Made by a program: the position numbers and the translations under genes. A stretch of 64,000 nucleotides of DNA from Sphingopyxis sp. OPL5 (GTDB lineage: Bacteria; Pseudomonadota; Alphaproteobacteria; Sphingomonadales; Sphingomonadaceae), in NCBI RefSeq assembly GCF_003797775.2, contig NZ_CP060725.1, positions 2,784,001-2,848,000 on the forward strand, given 5' to 3'. This document shows, in pieces, positions 3,050 through 60,134 of the stretch (positions are counted from its first letter, which is position 1; every line of letters starts with the position of its first letter). The notes below the pieces were generated by a model. It saw only the letters and a list, made by a program, of their open reading frames with translations. It searched no databases and was not told the DNA's origin.

Positions 3050-3075
3050 TGGGGCCCAGGCCCACCCACCAGTTT

Positions 3076-3155
3076 CCGTTCGTGTCGAGCGAAGTCGAGA
3101 CACGCCGCAGGCGCGCACGAACGATGGGCATCTCGACTTCGCTCGATGCGAACGG
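3076..3155. repeat. Dispersed palindromic repeat, family B, copy 1
   Basis: Inverted arms of about 29 bases: left arm CCGTTCGTGTCGAGCGAAGT onward at 3076-3104, right arm ending TCGCTCGATGCGAACGG at 3126-3155. The core GAGCGAAGTCGAGA recurs in copy 2 at 22031. A possible start codon for the next gene (3146) lies inside the right arm. Confidence 0.85.
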
Positions 3156-3163
3156 ATAAGGGG

Positions 3164-7992: not shown

Positions 7993-8070
7993 CGTCGCCC
8001 CCGCGAAGGCGGGGGCCGCTATCGGCATTGCACAAGGCTGCCAGCGGCCCCCGCCTTCGCGGGGGCGACG
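7993..8070. repeat. Dispersed palindromic pair, family D, copy 1 (empty)
   Basis: Two 28-base arms, 7993-8020 and 8043-8070, are perfect inverted copies of each other. Each arm is itself a palindrome with the core CCCCCGCGAAGGCGGGGG. The spacer is 22 bases. It lies between convergent genes, where it could terminate both transcripts. Related pairs are at 32184 and 36910, and the gene-carrying version is at 58071. Confidence 0.92.
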
Positions 8071-15091: not shown

Positions 15092-15167
15092 CGTCATAGC
15101 GCGCACGGCGAAGCAATCCAGAGTTGCATAAACCGCTCTGGATTGCTTCGCTGCGCGCGCAATGACG
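15092..15167. repeat. Dispersed palindromic repeat, family C, copy 2
   Basis: A 76-bp palindrome with outer CGTCATAGCGCGCA and GCGCGCAATGACG, and inner GAAGCAATCCAGAG paired with CTCTGGATTGCTTC around TTGCATAAACCG. It lies between murU and addB and interrupts the otherwise overlapping gene run. Confidence 0.9.
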
Positions 15168-22016: not shown

Positions 22017-22030
22017 GAGCGCAATCTTTC

Positions 22031-22117
22031 AACCCGTTCGCATCGAGCGAAGTCGAGATGCCCATCGGGGGCACACGTCCTCCCGACGTCTCGACTTCGC
22101 TCGATGCGAACGGGTTT
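22031..22117. repeat. Dispersed palindromic repeat, family B, copy 2
   Basis: Arms begin AACCCGTTCGCATCGAGCGA at 22031 and end TCGCTCGATGCGAACGGGTT near 22116. The core is again GAGCGAAGTCGAGA. It lies between the convergent trxA and GST genes, where the hairpin could end both transcripts. Confidence 0.92.
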
Positions 22118-22125
22118 ATTGATAT

Positions 22126-24029: not shown

Positions 24030-24034
24030 CTTCA

Positions 24035-24172
24035 ATCCTCCCTGTCGCGAAGCGATGGGGAGGTGGCAGTCGCGTAGCGGCTGACGGAGGGGCCTTGGCG
24101 CGGGCGTCGCTGGCCCCTCCACCACCGCTTCGCGGCGGTCCCCCCTCCCCACGGCTTCGCCGCAGGGAGGAT
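24035..24172. repeat. Dispersed palindromic repeat, family A, copy 2
   Basis: A 138-bp palindrome beginning ATCCTCCCTGTCGCGAAGCG and ending CGCAGGGAGGAT, with inner CTGACGGAGGGGCC opposite GGCCCCTCCACCACCGC. Six T bases follow on the plus strand. It lies between the aldehyde dehydrogenase and argJ genes. Confidence 0.92.
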
Positions 24173-24181
24173 TTTTTCGAC

Positions 24182-31979: not shown

Positions 31980-32183
31980 CTGCCAGTTTGAAGCATGGCG
32001 GGGTAAATTAGGAAAGGGGGTAGGGCGGGTTGCGTGACGAAATAGGATTTCGGGGAGCGGGCGGCCGCGGGCCAGCCTCTTCGTGCCTTTGCGCCTTTAG
32101 GTGAACCAAATAAGGTCGGGGCTGTCGGCTTGGCCCTTTTGGAACGGTAGCGAGCGATCGATTGCTGCCTCATCTCGCACATT

Positions 32184-32260
32184 GTCATTCCCGCCAAAGC
32201 GGGAAGCCAGGGATGGGCCAGCTAACGGACGCTCTGGGTCCCCGCTTTCGCGGGGATGAC
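32184..32260. repeat. Dispersed palindromic pair, family D, copy 2 (degenerate)
   Basis: Left arm GTCATTCCCGCCAAAGCGGG at 32184 onward, right arm CCCCGCTTTCGCGGGGATGAC ending at 32260 (21 bases, the last G-A-T-G-A-C being the outer end). Arms are imperfect but keep the outer GTCA and inner CCAG signature. Spacer about 23 bases. Confidence 0.75.
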
Positions 32261-32333
32261 AAAGTAAGAAAGCTGCAATGTCCGCTTCCCACCCCAACGC
32301 CGACATTCTCCGTTGCGCCGCTCGCACCACGAA

Positions 32334-34457: not shown

Positions 34458-34591
34458 ATCCTCCCCGTCGCGTAGCGATGGGGAGGTGGCAGTGGCGCAG
34501 CCGCTGACGGAGGGGCAATGACGCACCCGCGCCGCCCCTCCACCACCGCTTCGCGGCGGTCCCCCTCCCCATGGCTGCGCCACAGGGAGGA
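34458..34591. repeat. Dispersed palindromic repeat, family A, copy 3
   Basis: A 134-bp palindrome starting ATCCTCCCCGTCGCGTAGCG and ending CACAGGGAGG. The central spacer (about GCAATGACGCACCCGCG) differs from other copies while the arms are conserved. It sits next to the stop of the PQQ dehydrogenase gene. Confidence 0.9.
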
Positions 34592-36831: not shown

Positions 36832-36909
36832 ACTGCGCCCGAAGGGCGTAGCGTGCAAGCGGGAAAATGGGGGCGGAGGGGGTGGGGCAACTGAGCCGGT
36901 CGGGAGGGT

Positions 36910-36994
36910 GTTCCCCGGCGAAGGCCGGGGTCCAGAGCGAAATGGGGCCGGCGTTGCCTTGTAACGCTCTGGACCCCGGCCTTCGCCGGGGAAC
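36910..36994. repeat. Dispersed palindromic pair, family D, copy 3 (empty)
   Basis: Two 30-base perfect inverted arms at 36910-36939 and 36965-36994, outer end GTTCCCCGGCGAAGGCCGGGG and inner TCCAGAGCG, with a 25-base spacer. It lies between map and the PQQ dehydrogenase gene and could serve as the map terminator. Confidence 0.92.
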
Positions 36995-37005
36995 AGCTTA
37001 GCGGT

Positions 37006-42548: not shown

Positions 42549-42884
42549 AGGCTTATCTCCTTGGGGACAAGCCGGGGAGAGGCCCGCCCGATAGGCACAA
42601 GGTGGCGACGCCGCCGCCAGCCTGCAAGGGAAAAGCGGTCGGTGGCATGAATTTGCGCAGATCGGGGTTGGAATATGGTTAACGCGTTGGGGATTGGGGT
42701 GGGAAGCGGACCTTGCCGATCCTCCCTGTCGCGCAGCGATGGGGAGGTGGCAGCCCGAAGGGCTGACGGAGGGGCCGACGCCGTCAAAGACTGGCGCGCG
42801 GCCGCGGCCCCTCCACCACCAATTCGCGGCGGTCCCCCTCCCCACGGCTTCGCCGCAGGGAGGATTTATGCCCGCAACCGGTCG
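42549..42884. other. Gene-free region upstream of clpA
   Basis: 336 bases. The first ~170 hold the clpA ribosome binding site and presumed promoter, without a convincing -35/-10 pair. The rest is repeat A4 at 42719-42865. No small coding region was recognised. Confidence 0.55.
42719..42865. repeat. Dispersed palindromic repeat, family A, copy 4
   Basis: A 147-bp palindrome opening ATCCTCCCTGTCGCGCAGCG and closing CCGCAGGGAGGAT. Inner GGCTGACGGAGGGGCCGACG resembles the complement of the A1 right half, so half-elements are interchangeable between copies. Confidence 0.92.
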
Positions 42885-55724: not shown

Positions 55725-56064
55725 GGGTGCAGTCCCCTTTGCCCTGTGTCAGGATTCGCCCGTGTCCCTAGACCCGCCGCGCCGCGACGAAAAGAGGCTA
55801 AGGGTCCGTACTCCCTTACAGCACCGTCGAGGCGCCCAAATGGCGAACAGGTCGGACCGAAAGGTGCGCCGGGAAGGCTGGTTGCCTTTCCAAGCGGCTT
55901 TCGGTTCGAGATGGAAGCCATTTGGACGTCCCGAAGGGATTTGACCAAAATGGCCCATTGCTTCGTCGAGAAGTCTCGAAATATTGACATATGTCTTCGC
56001 CTTCTCTCCTCGCAGTGGGCCATTTTGCCTCAAACCTCGACGGTGCTGTAAGGGAGTACGGACC
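55725..56064. other. Gene-free region holding the MITE-like element
   Basis: 340 bases between fumarase and a membrane-protein gene, almost all of it the inverted-repeat element at 55801-56066. The 76 bases beside the fumarase start contain no evident promoter hexamer pair. Reading frames across the element lack family features. Confidence 0.7.
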
Positions 56065-56066
56065 CT
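55801..56066. mobile_element. MITE-like element with 32-bp perfect terminal inverted repeats
   Basis: Left end AGGGTCCGTACTCCCTTACA onward (55801-55832) and right end 56035-56066 are perfect inverted copies over 32 bases. Inside is a second inverted pair, CAAAATGGCCCATTGC at 55946-55961 and its near-complement at 56012-56027 (one mismatch), with GACATATGTC in its loop. No transposase gene. No clear target duplication: left flank AGAGGCTA, right flank AAATATCT. The right end supplies two bases of the stop codon of the adjacent membrane-protein gene. Confidence 0.85.
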
Positions 56067-56931
56067 AAATATCTTCCTTTCGGCGCCCGAAATGGCGGCG
56101 CTTGCCGGGCGCCAGCGAAATTTCGGGTTCGTCGCGATCGGCGGCGCGGCGGTGCGGGGTTTCGGGATCGAAATTGACCAGCGGCTCGCGGCGAACCAGC
56201 GCATACCACGCGCCGATCGCCGCCATGACGAGCAGCGCGAACCAGCCGGCGCCGATCACCGCGGTCAGCGTCCAGCCAAAGCCGGCGGGGGCGATCAGCG
56301 CCATGATCGTGGCGAGGCAGGGGATCAGGACAAGCGTGCCGGCGAACTGCCACCATCGCCCCATCTGCACCATGGCATAGCCGATCGCGACATTGGTCAG
56401 GGTGAGCGCGAGGAATTTGGCCGCGACCGGCCAGGGCAGGCTGGCCATGGCGGGCGAATAATCGCCCAGCGTGAAGGCCGCCTGGATGTCGAACAGCAGC
56501 CAATTCTCGTAAGCGTCGCAGAGCGCGGCGACGATCGGGAGTAGGGTCGCGGCGAGCAGCCAGCGCAGCCTGAGTTCGCGCCACAAGGCGAAGCAGCCGC
56601 AACCGAGGAAGGCGGCGTAGAGCAGCATGAACAGATAGTCCTGCTCGTTGCCCGCGCGCATCGCGGCGAGGCGGGCGACCTGCAACGGATCAGCGCTGGT
56701 GCCGAAGACCGCGAACAGATCGGCCTCGCCGCGTGCGAATTCGAAGGCGATGACCGGCGCGCCATAGCCGGGGTGGATCGCCGCGGCATCGGCCGGGAAG
56801 ACCCGCCCGAGGTGAAGGCCGAACAGGAGCATGGCGGCCCCCATCGCGACGGTCAGCACCCACCAGCGGGTCGGGGCGGGCGGGCGCGTGCGCTGCGCCT
56901 CGATCCAGCGATGGAGCCCCCCGCCAGCCAT
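56065..56931 (-). CDS. Multi-pass membrane protein, C-terminus ending at the MITE
   Basis: A 288-residue protein with about six hydrophobic helices, the first at residues 24-42 (VLTVAMGAAMLLFGLHLG) and others around 100-116, 122-140, 165-180, 190-212 and 216-245. The tail after residue 255 is charged and ends FGRRKEDI. The TAG is formed by one flanking base and the last two bases of the MITE, so the original C-terminus may have been different. It follows zur by 32 bases, making it a possible member of the same unit. No family recognised. Confidence 0.7.
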   Translation of the reverse strand: MAGGGLHRWIEAQRTRPPAPTRWWVLTVAMGAAMLLFGLHLGRVFPADAAAIHPGYGAPVIAFEFARGEADLFAVFGTSADPLQVARLAAMRAGNEQDYLFMLLYAAFLGCGCFALWRELRLRWLLAATLLPIVAALCDAYENWLLFDIQAAFTLGDYSPAMASLPWPVAAKFLALTLTNVAIGYAMVQMGRWWQFAGTLVLIPCLATIMALIAPAGFGWTLTAVIGAGWFALLVMAAIGAWYALVRREPLVNFDPETPHRRAADRDEPEISLAPGKRRHFGRRKEDI

Positions 56932-57541: not shown

Positions 57542-57976
57542 CTAGTGCCGCGCCCGCCGGTTGAGGTCGTGGCCGAGCGCGACGATCGCGACGCCGATCA
57601 TCGTCGCCAGCACTTCGCTGCCGTCATGCGGCCGCGACAGCGCGCCGCCCATCATGCCCAGCCCGAAACTGCCGACCGCGAAGGGCATCATATAGCCATG
57701 GCTGAGCACACCCGAGACGAGCGTGATCAGCGCGAAGCCGATCGCGACGACGAGGCCGACTTCGTGGAACAGGTGATTGTCGAACATCACCCCGCCGACC
57801 GAGGCGATCGAGGCGAAAAAGACCGTCGTCGCGAGGCAGTGGACGAGGCACAGCCCCGACAGGCCCATCGCCAGCTGGTCGCCCGACAGCGAGGTCAGCG
57901 GCTTCGAATCGCGCGCAGCCCGAACCAGCGCGCCGAGGCGCGTCGTGGCATGGTCGTGGCTGGCGACGTGGGTCAC
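57542..57976 (-). CDS. MerC-domain membrane protein
   Basis: A 144-residue inner-membrane protein with four predicted helices. The metal-binding motif is in LSGLCLVHCLATTVFF (cysteine-x-x-x-cysteine in the first helix), as in MerC-type transporters. The remaining helices run about 65-85, 90-110 and 120-137. Start codon GTG at 57976. No mer genes are nearby, so transport of zinc or a related metal, controlled by the adjacent Zur, is more likely than mercury. Confidence 0.85.
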   Translation of the reverse strand: MTHVASHDHATTRLGALVRAARDSKPLTSLSGDQLAMGLSGLCLVHCLATTVFFASIASVGGVMFDNHLFHEVGLVVAIGFALITLVSGVLSHGYMMPFAVGSFGLGMMGGALSRPHDGSEVLATMIGVAIVALGHDLNRRARH

Positions 57977-58050: not shown

Positions 58051-58070
58051 AAGTCGCCGCTCGCCTCAAC

Positions 58071-58449
58071 TTCGTCACCCCCGCGAAGGCGGGGGTCCAG
58101 CTTTTTCAGCCGTTGAGGGTGTCGAACAGGTCGAGCCAATCTGGATTGCTTTCCTCGATGAGGCGAAACTTCCAGTCGCGATTCCATTTCTTCATCGCCT
58201 TCTCGCGCCGGATGGCATCACGGATGTCTTCGTGCCTTTCCATATAGACGAGCCGTTTCACGCCATAGAGACGACAATGTTCGGCACCTTTGTCGTCGCG
58301 ATGCTGCATAACGCGATGGGGAAGGTAAGCAGTGACACCGATATAGGTCGTACCGCGGTAGCGATTGGCCATGATGTAGACGTAACCACCTTTGGCCATT
58401 CGCGGGCTCCCTGAAGAAGCTGGACCCCCGCCTTCGCGGGGGTGACGAA
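58071..58449. mobile_element. Inverted-repeat unit carrying a GIY-YIG gene (family D, loaded form)
   Basis: Arms at 58071-58109 and 58411-58449 are 39 bases long and inverted, with one mismatch. Each contains the family D core CCCCCGCGAAGGCGGGGG and inner TCCAGCTT. Between them lie only a ribosome binding site (GGAG) and the GIY-YIG gene; its stop codon overlaps the left arm. Empty pairs of the same family elsewhere have spacers of 22-25 bases. Confidence 0.85.
58106..58399 (-). CDS. GIY-YIG nuclease domain protein
   Basis: A 97-residue single-domain protein. The GIY-YIG core is GYVYIMANRYRGTTYIGVT (residues 5-23), with the catalytic arginine in LPHRVMQHR and the metal-binding glutamate in AIRREKAMKKWNRDWK. 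No added DNA-binding domain. GGAG lies eight bases before the ATG, directly at the inner end of the right repeat arm, and the TGA overlaps the left arm. The gene is the whole cargo of a palindromic unit, which suggests that the nuclease acts on the repeats. Confidence 0.92.
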   Translation of the reverse strand: MAKGGYVYIMANRYRGTTYIGVTAYLPHRVMQHRDDKGAEHCRLYGVKRLVYMERHEDIRDAIRREKAMKKWNRDWKFRLIEESNPDWLDLFDTLNG

Positions 58450-58466
58450 GAAGAGGGAGAGCGAGA

Positions 58467-60134
58467 TCAGCCTCCCTCTTCCGCCCGCAAGGCCTTGCGA
58501 TCGAGCTTCCCGATCATCGTCTTGGGCAAATTCAGCCGCACCTCGACCGCGTTCACCCGCTCATGCTTGCCGAGCTGCGGGTTGAGCCAGGCGGCGAGCG
58601 CTTCGCCCGAGACGTCGAAGCCGTCCTCGAGCGTCACGAACGCCTTGGGCGCCTCGCCGCGATAGGCGTCGGGGACGCCGAGGACGATCGCTTCCTTGAC
58701 CGCGGGATGTTCATAGAGATGCGCCTCGATGACGCTGGGGTAGACCTTGAAGCCGCCGACCGCGATCATGTCCTTCAGTCGGTCGACGATCCGGACATAG
58801 CCGTCTTCGTCGATCACCGCGACGTCGCCGGTGCGCAGCCAGCCGTCTTCGGTGAAGCTGTCGCCATCGGCGTCGGCGCGGTTCCAATAGCCGCGCATGA
58901 TCTGCGGGCCCTTGACGACCAGTTCCCCCGGTTCGCCCGCCGGGGCGTCCTTCATAGGGTCTTCCTTGTCGACGAGACGGATGTGCGTCGCGGGCAGCGG
59001 CTGGCCGATCGTCCCCGCCTTGACCGGGCCGGCATAGGGGTTGGTCGAGACGACGCCCGAACTTTCGGTGAGGCCATAGCCCTCGACCAGCGAAGCGCCC
59101 GTGGCGGCGACGAATTTCTCGCGGAGCTCGGCGGGCATCGGCGCCCCCCCCGAAATGCAGACGCGCAGGCTGGAGAAGTCGGTCTTCGCGAGGTCGGGAT
59201 GGTCGAGCAGCGCCTGATACATCGTCGGCACGCCGGGCAGCGCGGTCGTTTTTGTGCGGGTGATCGCCTCCAGCGCCTGTTTGGCATCGAAACGCGGCAG
59301 CATCGCGATCATGCCGCCGTTGAGCACCGTGCGGTTGAGGACGCAGGTGTTGGCGAAGACATGGAAGAAGGGGAGGACGCCGAGGATGCGGTCGTCGGCG
59401 TCGTGATCGGGGTCGATGCTGTTGACCTGCCGCGCGTTGGCGGTGAGATTCTGGTGGGTCAGCATCGCGCCCTTCGGCGTGCCGGTGGTGCCGCCGGTGT
59501 ACTGGATCAGCGCGACGTCGGTTTCGGGATCGATCGTTGCGGGTTCGTAATGGCCGTCATTGGCGACCAGCGCCGAGAAGCGGGTGACGCGGCTGTCGTC
59601 GGGCAGCGCCGAGACCTCCTTGCGGCGCAGCATCCGGTAGAGCAGCGACTTGGCGCCGGGCAATCCGCCAGCGACCGACCCGACGATCAACTGTTTCAGG
59701 CTCGATCCGTCGAGCACCTTCAAGGCGGTCGGCAGCAGCGCGGTCGCGCTCATCGTAAAGAGGATTTCGGTACCCGAATCCTCGACCTGCGCCTCGAGTT
59801 CAGTCGCGGTGTAGAGCGGCGAGAAATTGACCACCGTCGCCCCGGCGGCGAGTGCGCCATAATAGGCCGCGACATAATGCGGGACGTTGGGGAGGAAGAG
59901 GCCGATGCGCGTGCCCTTGCCGATGCCGCGTTCCTGCAGGCCCCTGGCGACGCGGGCGACCCCGTGCGCGACCTCGTTGTAGCTGAAATGGCGTCCCATG
60001 AAATCGAGCATCGGCGCATCGCGGCGCTTCGCGATGCTTGCGGCGAGCATGTCGGGGAGCGAGAGCGGCGGGAAATCCTGGTCCCAGGGCGTGGGGTGGT
60101 TGTAATTCGTCGACCAGGAAAAACCGCTATCCAT
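58467..60134 (-). CDS. fadD: Long-chain acyl-CoA ligase (AMP-forming)
   Basis: A 555-residue adenylate-forming enzyme activating fatty acids with ATP and CoA. The AMP-binding motif is YTGGTTGTPKGAMLTHQN, followed by GYGLTESSGVVSTNPYAG and the hinge GWLRTGDVAVIDEDGYV. The fatty-acyl signature is RIVDRLKDMIAVGGFKVYPS, and the catalytic lysine is in TMIGKLDRKAL. The gene begins 17 bases beyond the GIY-YIG unit. No neighbouring beta-oxidation genes. Confidence 0.92.
   Translation of the reverse strand: MDSGFSWSTNYNHPTPWDQDFPPLSLPDMLAASIAKRRDAPMLDFMGRHFSYNEVAHGVARVARGLQERGIGKGTRIGLFLPNVPHYVAAYYGALAAGATVVNFSPLYTATELEAQVEDSGTEILFTMSATALLPTALKVLDGSSLKQLIVGSVAGGLPGAKSLLYRMLRRKEVSALPDDSRVTRFSALVANDGHYEPATIDPETDVALIQYTGGTTGTPKGAMLTHQNLTANARQVNSIDPDHDADDRILGVLPFFHVFANTCVLNRTVLNGGMIAMLPRFDAKQALEAITRTKTTALPGVPTMYQALLDHPDLAKTDFSSLRVCISGGAPMPAELREKFVAATGASLVEGYGLTESSGVVSTNPYAGPVKAGTIGQPLPATHIRLVDKEDPMKDAPAGEPGELVVKGPQIMRGYWNRADADGDSFTEDGWLRTGDVAVIDEDGYVRIVDRLKDMIAVGGFKVYPSVIEAHLYEHPAVKEAIVLGVPDAYRGEAPKAFVTLEDGFDVSGEALAAWLNPQLGKHERVNAVEVRLNLPKTMIGKLDRKALRAEEGG

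Follow-up and report, generated by a model that had tools for sequence, protein, structure and literature searches.

The DNA analysed here, referred to as the window, is a stretch of 64,000 nucleotides (positions 2784001-2848000) from the Sphingopyxis sp. OPL5 genome, which consists of a single contig of 4,676,975 bp. Between a gene encoding a MerC-domain protein (57542-57976) and a gene encoding an AMP-binding, acyl-CoA synthetase-like protein, here called fadD (58467-60134), the window contains a small nuclease gene enclosed by two inverted repeats, or arms. The parts of this unit are as follows.

58070-58109, plus strand: left arm, a CGTC REP, with tag and hairpin at 58073-58096
58106-58399, minus strand: gene for a 97-amino-acid GIY-YIG nuclease of subfamily A (Pfam PF01541, E value 2.8e-12)
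58400-58410, minus strand: 11-nt leader with GGGAG, resembling a ribosome-binding site, as read from the sequence
58411-58450, minus strand: right arm, an inverted CGTC REP, with tag and hairpin at 58424-58447

The two arms are inverted, differ by one mismatch, and have 301 nt between them. Each is 40 nt long, one base more per arm than the 39 given in a preliminary description of this DNA, which was otherwise accurate about their orientation and single mismatch. It was also correct in placing a 97-residue GIY-YIG gene between the arms: the stop codon falls within the left arm, and the start lies 11 nt from the right arm. The left arm is made up of a CGTC tag, a stem of ACCCCCGC/GCGGGGGT, a GAAG loop, and a CCAGC tail. 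Both arms (58073-58096 and 58424-58447) show the tag, an A-T first pair, an 8-bp stem, a 4-nt loop, and a CCA tail. In the portion of the text available, CGTC-tagged REPs are described with the same tag and first pair, an 8- to 9-bp stem, a 4- to 5-nt loop, and a CCA-like tail, and they are mostly paired (Di Nocera et al. 2013, PMC3733652). A search for the arm core at up to three mismatches found no match in any of 100 dinucleotide-preserving shuffles of the window and no further copy in the window itself, and a slightly longer arm pattern, with one mismatch allowed, was absent from the rest of the 4.68-Mb genome. The arm sub-type of the window unit is not dispersed in many copies, then, its two arms being the only ones in their own genome at that stringency. 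Other REP sub-types are dispersed in the same genome, type 2, for example, giving 15 matches. At two mismatches the arm pattern merges sub-types, and it was left out of the copy-number tests in that form.

The unit is one of several in this genome. A search of the genome gave eight matches representing seven GIY-YIG genes, two of the matches being halves of one split gene. All seven paralogues are enclosed by inverted arms with a gap of 301 to 331 nt, and the type of arm is different for each. The L006 arms match each other in two short segments. The tags of the units are CGTC or variants such as TGTC and TGTT, and not the GTAG of REPtrons. Two paralogues look degraded, L007/L008 (C1:4345519-4345802) by a split frame and L005 (C1:1468662-1468925) by an internal TAG; the L007 type also occurs in the window as a gene-less dimer. 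Four gene-less dimers in the window resemble arms of the paralogues:

7993-8070, no strand: CGTC-REP dimer, tags outward, no gene; best match, the arms of unit L007
15092-15167, no strand: dimer of the CGTCATTGCG..GCAATCCAGAG type; best, modest match, the arms of unit L006
32183-32261, no strand: REP heterodimer with TGTC tags, no gene; best match, the arms of unit L002
36909-36995, no strand: REP dimer with the TGTT tag variant, no gene; best match, the arms of unit L004

The dimer at 15092-15167 reaches 0.62 to 0.69 of the full score with the L006 arms, the next best match reaching 0.22. The pairs at 7993-8070, 32183-32261, and 36909-36995 had been described as carrying the same arms as the unit at 58070-58450, but they are of other sub-types. 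Their proposed origin as dependent derivatives of that unit had to be given up as well, their sequences matching other GIY-YIG units instead, namely, its paralogues L007, L002, and L004.

The window also contains repeats of other kinds. A third dispersed inverted element, ATCCTCCCTGTCGCGAAGCGATGGGGAGG .. AGGGAGGAT, of 133 to 147 bp, is present in four copies (2087-2232, 24034-24173, 34459-34591, and 42719-42865), and similar elements are inserted beside genes in relatives. A MITE-like sequence of 284 bp lies at 55792-56075; its inverted ends measure 41 nt and are 90% complementary, further inverted repeats are nested in it, and it had no Rfam match.

Enclosure by arms was compared with several controls. 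At an arm score of at least 20, 94 of 117 GIY-YIG entries were enclosed, versus 2 of 443 shifted positions along the same loci; the figure of 94 is slightly high because the entries include L007 and L008, which are halves of one gene, and L036, which was scored on an unrelated hairpin. With the same ungapped score and threshold, 137 of 167 full-length GIY-YIG genes were enclosed. The other predicted genes gave 8 of 1183, and the short ones among them 4 of 212 (Fisher 3e-146). At a score of at least 16, the counts were 148 of 167 and 15 of 1183. The 167 genes were obtained from 190 by removing those with a profile score below 35 and duplicates (leaving 182), partial matches (leaving 175), and genes with less than 220 nt on a side. 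The spacing of repeats gave a similar picture in 1.18 Mb of DNA from the genus, made up of regions selected around GIY-YIG genes. There, neighboring REPs with tags outward were most frequent at a distance of 10 to 30 nt (48 pairs, none with a gene), and in a second mode at 300 to 350 nt all 10 pairs held a GIY-YIG gene. An enzyme gene between inverted REPs, as counted in these comparisons, is the layout of REPtrons.

Weak GIY-YIG matches were considered as a single negative control, but they proved to be a mixture of two clades, B and C, and were hence split by profile. Only genes with distinct DNA, 200 nt of flank to either side, and 80% coverage of the profile were retained, and for every one of these the best of the three profiles led by at least 5 bits. 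At a score of at least 16, arms enclosed 213 of 260 genes of subfamily A, to which the window gene belongs by construction because it is one of the five seeds of profile A. The corresponding counts were 8 of 15 for clade B and 0 of 39 for the YhbQ-like clade C, with profiles whose seeds (7 and 6 sequences, respectively) had been picked after their flanks were seen. Without the profile seeds they were 5 of 8 and 0 of 33, and among loci fetched only after the split into clades had been noticed they were 3 of 5 and 0 of 29. The highest arm score in clade C was 11. We presume clade C to be YhbQ-like, in part from its similarity to 1zg2 and 1ywl. The association of GIY-YIG genes with arms is specific to the subfamily; a link of this kind had been anticipated in the preliminary description, and it is a strong one statistically for subfamily A. 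A passive association, in which common intergenic REPs flank small genes by chance or at insertion hot spots, might be suspected from the slots downstream of fadD and serB, which collect REPs of several types. That explanation was rejected on the shifted positions, on the control genes, short ones included, and on the YhbQ-like clade, and the matched arms and the covariation of arms with proteins also speak against it, so that we consider it highly improbable.

This covariation was measured with 199 units having an arm score of at least 18 and a spacing of 200 to 700 nt. Pairs with related flanking open reading frames, as judged from translated flanks, were left out to guard against inflation by orthologous sites. 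The arm sequence was common to 163 of 252 different-site pairs with at least 70% amino acid identity, to about 1% of those with less than 55% identity, and to 2% of different-site pairs within one genome (n = 150). The Mantel r was 0.259, with a permutation maximum of 0.054; when arms were permuted within genomes, the maximum was 0.187, and 0 of 999 permutations reached the observed value, with the reservation that the pairs are not independent and that named loci count as separate genomes even if they are in one record (L055/L061). One arm type is kept with proteins that are 70 to 79% identical in records from the genus of the window, Erythrobacter, and Stakelama. Judged by these comparisons, arm type follows protein type at unrelated sites.

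Dispersed REPs were more numerous in genomes carrying a gene of the matching type. The tests covered 60 genomes of the genus, and the one-sided Mann-Whitney statistics ignore phylogeny, carriers being typed from fetched loci only: the mean number of type-matched REPs was 2.4 in 5 carriers versus 0.29 in non-carriers for the first type (p = 1e-5), 8.9 in 10 carriers versus 1.92 for the second (p = 1.6e-4), and 3.4 in 8 carriers versus 0.69 for the third (p = 5.7e-5). A cross table of REP type and gene type gave ratios of 8.3, 4.6, and 4.9 on the diagonal and 2.0 to 4.8 off it, and one off-diagonal ratio (4.8) about equals its diagonal (4.9). The correlation is in part one of general REP richness. 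Two genomes, G052 and G058, have many type-2 REPs (20 and 23, respectively) without a cognate gene among those typed, again from fetched loci only.

The units are largely inherited in place. By flank similarity, 132 genes from 45 genomes of the genus fall into 29 sites, 19 of which are common to more than one gene copy; 123 of the 132 genes reach an arm score of 16, and none of the 29 sites is without an enclosed member. The genes counted in the controls above are accordingly not independent of one another. Because 132 genes occupy 29 sites, most of them shared, inheritance at fixed sites with patchy loss dominates, and movement is rare. This weakens the idea of an active, often-jumping autonomous element. 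Whole units also occur duplicated at unlinked sites. Two units of G024, separated by 1.1 Mb, have 99.0% identity over 416 bp and unrelated flanks; on one side the similarity stops at the tag, and on the other 17 nt past it. In a second genome, two units 45 kb apart are 95.4% identical over 415 bp, with similarity extending beyond one tag, and G014 has a pair on two contigs with 86% identity over 408 bp. Neighboring unit copies are found in G003 and L058. Comparison of these copies shows duplication of whole arm-gene-arm units, but the mostly shared sites do not fit the lively element that an autonomous one would be. The L058 locus (Sphingobium sp. DEHP117) has three near-identical GIY-YIG copies in tandem, 467 bp apart, which could be a real amplification or an effect of assembly.

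On the basis of these observations, we give a probability of roughly two-thirds (0.66) to the reading that the 379-bp unit is a REPtron-like element, in which a GIY-YIG nuclease is framed by its cognate CGTC REPs, processes them, and rarely moves them. The nuclease would most likely recognize the cognate CGTC hairpin as an extruded cruciform or an exposed single strand and would cut near the CGTC tag. Copying or re-insertion of the REP dimer would be left to host replication and repair, which on rare occasions would do the same for the whole arm-gene-arm unit. One genome can hold several units that differ in arm and protein type and are kept by selection, mostly at fixed sites, and the scattered gene-less REP dimers would then be their substrates. 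Recognition of cognate REPs, cleavage at the tag, and the role of the nuclease as the mover of DNA are, we infer, the functional parts of this scheme. The logic of REPs and their RAYT enzymes with an unrelated nuclease, as suggested in the preliminary description, is borne out by the link to arms, the cognate matching, the dispersed REPs, the slots without a unit, and the duplicated units.

Slots with and without a unit, their contents assigned by reading of the sequences, bear on the order of events. A simple REP detector misses dimers with a mismatched first pair, such as that of G052. The preliminary description had pointed to the fadD region of relatives as a place where sites without the unit might be seen, and both clean slots and slots with gene-less REPs were found there. 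The unit is beside fadD in at least 5 of 60 genomes, and the slot is clean in G026, G001, G008, and G025; the REP dimers that occupy it in G019, G054, and G018 are of other types. In the relative G027 (L119), it holds a perfect fused palindrome of the same type as the unit. The serB slot holds a unit in 1 of 30 loci (G024, downstream of serB), two of the 30 being cut by contig ends, and gene-less REP dimers in G052, G040, G046, G058, and G014. On Sphingobium chromids, the slot between fnrL and a response regulator gene has a unit in TomMM7A, TYG46, MM15, and TYG73, that of TYG73 being frameshifted. The same slot has a same-type fused palindrome in TYG64 (L259, perfect) and an altered one in TYG74. 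In TYG72 it is occupied by another repeat, and TYG65 and S. herbicidovorans lack a same-type repeat there. From their sequences, the fused palindromes are what would remain if a deletion joined 8-bp direct repeats that the two arms share, and those of G027 and TomTYG64 could be excision scars or target sites. Comparison of filled with empty sites revealed no consistent target-site duplication; there was one 8-bp near-duplication (L178 versus L192) and none in others such as L154 and L194, and additional bases beyond the tags are frequent in the inserted DNA.

Some of these slots would also suit a different history, in which the arms precede the gene. A gene resembling a homing endonuclease would have inserted between the arms of pre-existing REP dimers; its product would cut dimers or palindromes that are still intact, and the gene would spread when the break is repaired from a copy that already has it. 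GIY-YIG homing endonucleases such as I-TevI and I-BmoI tie GIY-YIG catalysis to gene mobility, and the possible insertion of a GIY-YIG gene into its own target would be a point in common. The gene-less dimers at 10 to 30 nt have the same outward-tag layout as the gene-holding pairs at 300 to 350 nt, and same-type palindromes occupy the site of the unit in the relatives G027 and TomTYG64/74. Moreover, the serB dimers of G040, G046, and G014 are near the arm type of the G024 unit (0.83 to 0.90 of the full score on one side), so that gene insertion into an existing dimer also fits. However, the duplicated units bring their own arms to unlinked sites, with the homology breaking off close to the tags. 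Other slots are clean, and the gene-less dimers read in the fadD slot (G019, G054, and G018) are of other types. The fused palindromes equally fit the deletion described above. The units differ from homing endonucleases, too, in their palindromic ends and in the model of a single-domain protein of 97 residues, and there was no Rfam match in the window and so no intron family was found there. We regard this homing history as unlikely, at about one chance in five in our estimation. Under the REPtron-like reading, movement of the unit as a whole, as opposed to entry of a gene into a dimer, is the order of events that we would infer.

In the protein, conservation among the 199 units is at least 98% for residues Y8, Y19, G21, R29, E66, and N85, which we take to be the catalytic residues of the GIY-YIG family, and a conserved C-terminal N-P-x-W-x-D stretch is found in subfamily A. 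The median dN/dS was 0.114 over 506 non-independent pairs, with one pair above 0.5, and on these values the GIY-YIG genes of the units are under purifying selection. The predicted structure is a GIY-YIG fold, a single domain of 97 residues with a pLDDT of 94. Its best Foldseek matches were the UPF0213 proteins 1zg2 and 1ywl, Slx1, and the GIY-YIG domain of UvrC, all weaker than an E value of 0.001. GIY-YIG (PF01541) was the sole Pfam domain found; domain searches gave no known transposase domain, the HUH Y1 domain of the IS200/IS605 type included, and PADLOC, PHROGs, and NCBIfam searches gave no match. The purifying selection, the inheritance at shared sites, and the resemblance of the predicted fold to Slx1 and UvrC N-domain structures would be expected of a domesticated maintenance nuclease that serves the host by trimming or resolving REP cruciforms once they are extruded, with slippage, gene conversion, or another transposase spreading the REPs. 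This explanation leaves the framing of the gene by cognate REPs and the whole-unit duplicates unaccounted for, and we consider it improbable.

The units share features with several known systems. Single-domain UPF0213/YhbQ-YazA proteins have the same Pfam domain, a similar length, and the nearest structures, but arms enclose none of the YhbQ-like genes, and the N-P-x-W-x-D stretch is a feature of subfamily A. Insertion sequences and MITEs likewise have a small gene between inverted ends and short gene-less relatives; here, in contrast, there is no known transposase domain and no consistent target duplication, and the ends of the unit are themselves hairpins. There is also a likeness to REPtrons, which consist of GTAG REPs and RAYT (TnpA-REP) tyrosine transposases. 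In both, an enzyme gene is framed by inverted, tetranucleotide-tagged hairpin repeats, gene-less dimers occur elsewhere, and a genome may have several enzyme/repeat pairs; the enzyme here is a GIY-YIG protein and not HUH Y1, and the tag is CGTC and not GTAG. RAYTs are described, in the part of the text available, as single-copy, vertically inherited, and domesticated (PMC8049555). Long vertical inheritance is thus common to both systems, but RAYTs are said there not to copy themselves, whereas whole GIY-YIG units are occasionally duplicated.

Subfamily A and its arms extend beyond the genus. Class and phylum searches gave matches in 70 of 144 and 123 of 199 genomes, respectively, with subfamilies mixed. 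Among 40 subfamily A loci from outside the genus, a non-random set hand-picked from the stronger rows of those lists, 21 reached an arm score of 16 and 24 had REP-like hairpins on both sides by table count; none of 20 weak-scoring loci had such hairpins on both sides. The link of arms and gene is weaker away from the genus. Enclosed loci include Pseudomonas, Lysobacter, and Nitrospira records and one Aeromonas caviae record. A Neisseria gonorrhoeae copy is flanked left and right by such repeats, though they do not form a neat enclosing pair, and there are no enclosing CGTC arms around the copies from Photobacterium, Rhizobium tumorigenes, and Planktothrix. The clade B proteins, which have the motif KGWSRAKK, are encoded between palindromes of a different family, CTCGAAGGATGA / GAGCTTGTCGAAGG, and their enclosure is higher by eye than the 8 of 15 scored. 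Dimers of the form CGTTCG..TCGAGCGAAGTCGAGA at 3075-3156 and 22024-22123 of the window resemble clade B arms of other genomes, but the genome of the window (G000) had no conspicuous clade B gene.

CGTC REPs are known from five phyla, with alphaproteobacteria predominating, and their superfamily takes in the dRS3 repeats of Neisseria and RPE-4/RPE-6 of Rickettsia, as stated in the accessible portion of the text (PMC3733652). That portion describes a dedicated transposase as apparently absent and reports no association with a transposase gene, in contrast to the GIY-YIG subfamily associated here. It also lists excinuclease ABC complex proteins among REP-decorated open reading frames, and some of these may well be GIY-YIG genes. 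A term look-up in the text available for PMC8266576, PMC12306157, and PMC6006769 gave no mention of GIY, and among the matches listed for open-licence full-text literature, none tied GIY-YIG or YhbQ genes to REPs, judged by titles, counts, and the first lines of abstracts. More broadly, and tentatively, with the odds somewhat short of even, GIY-YIG nucleases could be the missing mobilizing enzymes of the CGTC-REP superfamily, with a chemistry unrelated to that of known REP transposases; the second lineage would play the same part for a second palindrome superfamily, and the YhbQ-like branch would be a sister without a repeat partner.

A type-matched nuclease inside the repeat pair makes the question of the missing CGTC-REP enzyme a testable one. 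If the proposal is true, there would be a class of REP-mobilizing enzymes that is unrelated to tyrosine transposases and was reached independently. It would also provide a new account of small genes annotated as "GIY-YIG nuclease family protein" or "excinuclease ABC subunit C." Such GIY-YIG enzymes are good candidates for spreading repeats that have been thought to have no enzyme of their own.
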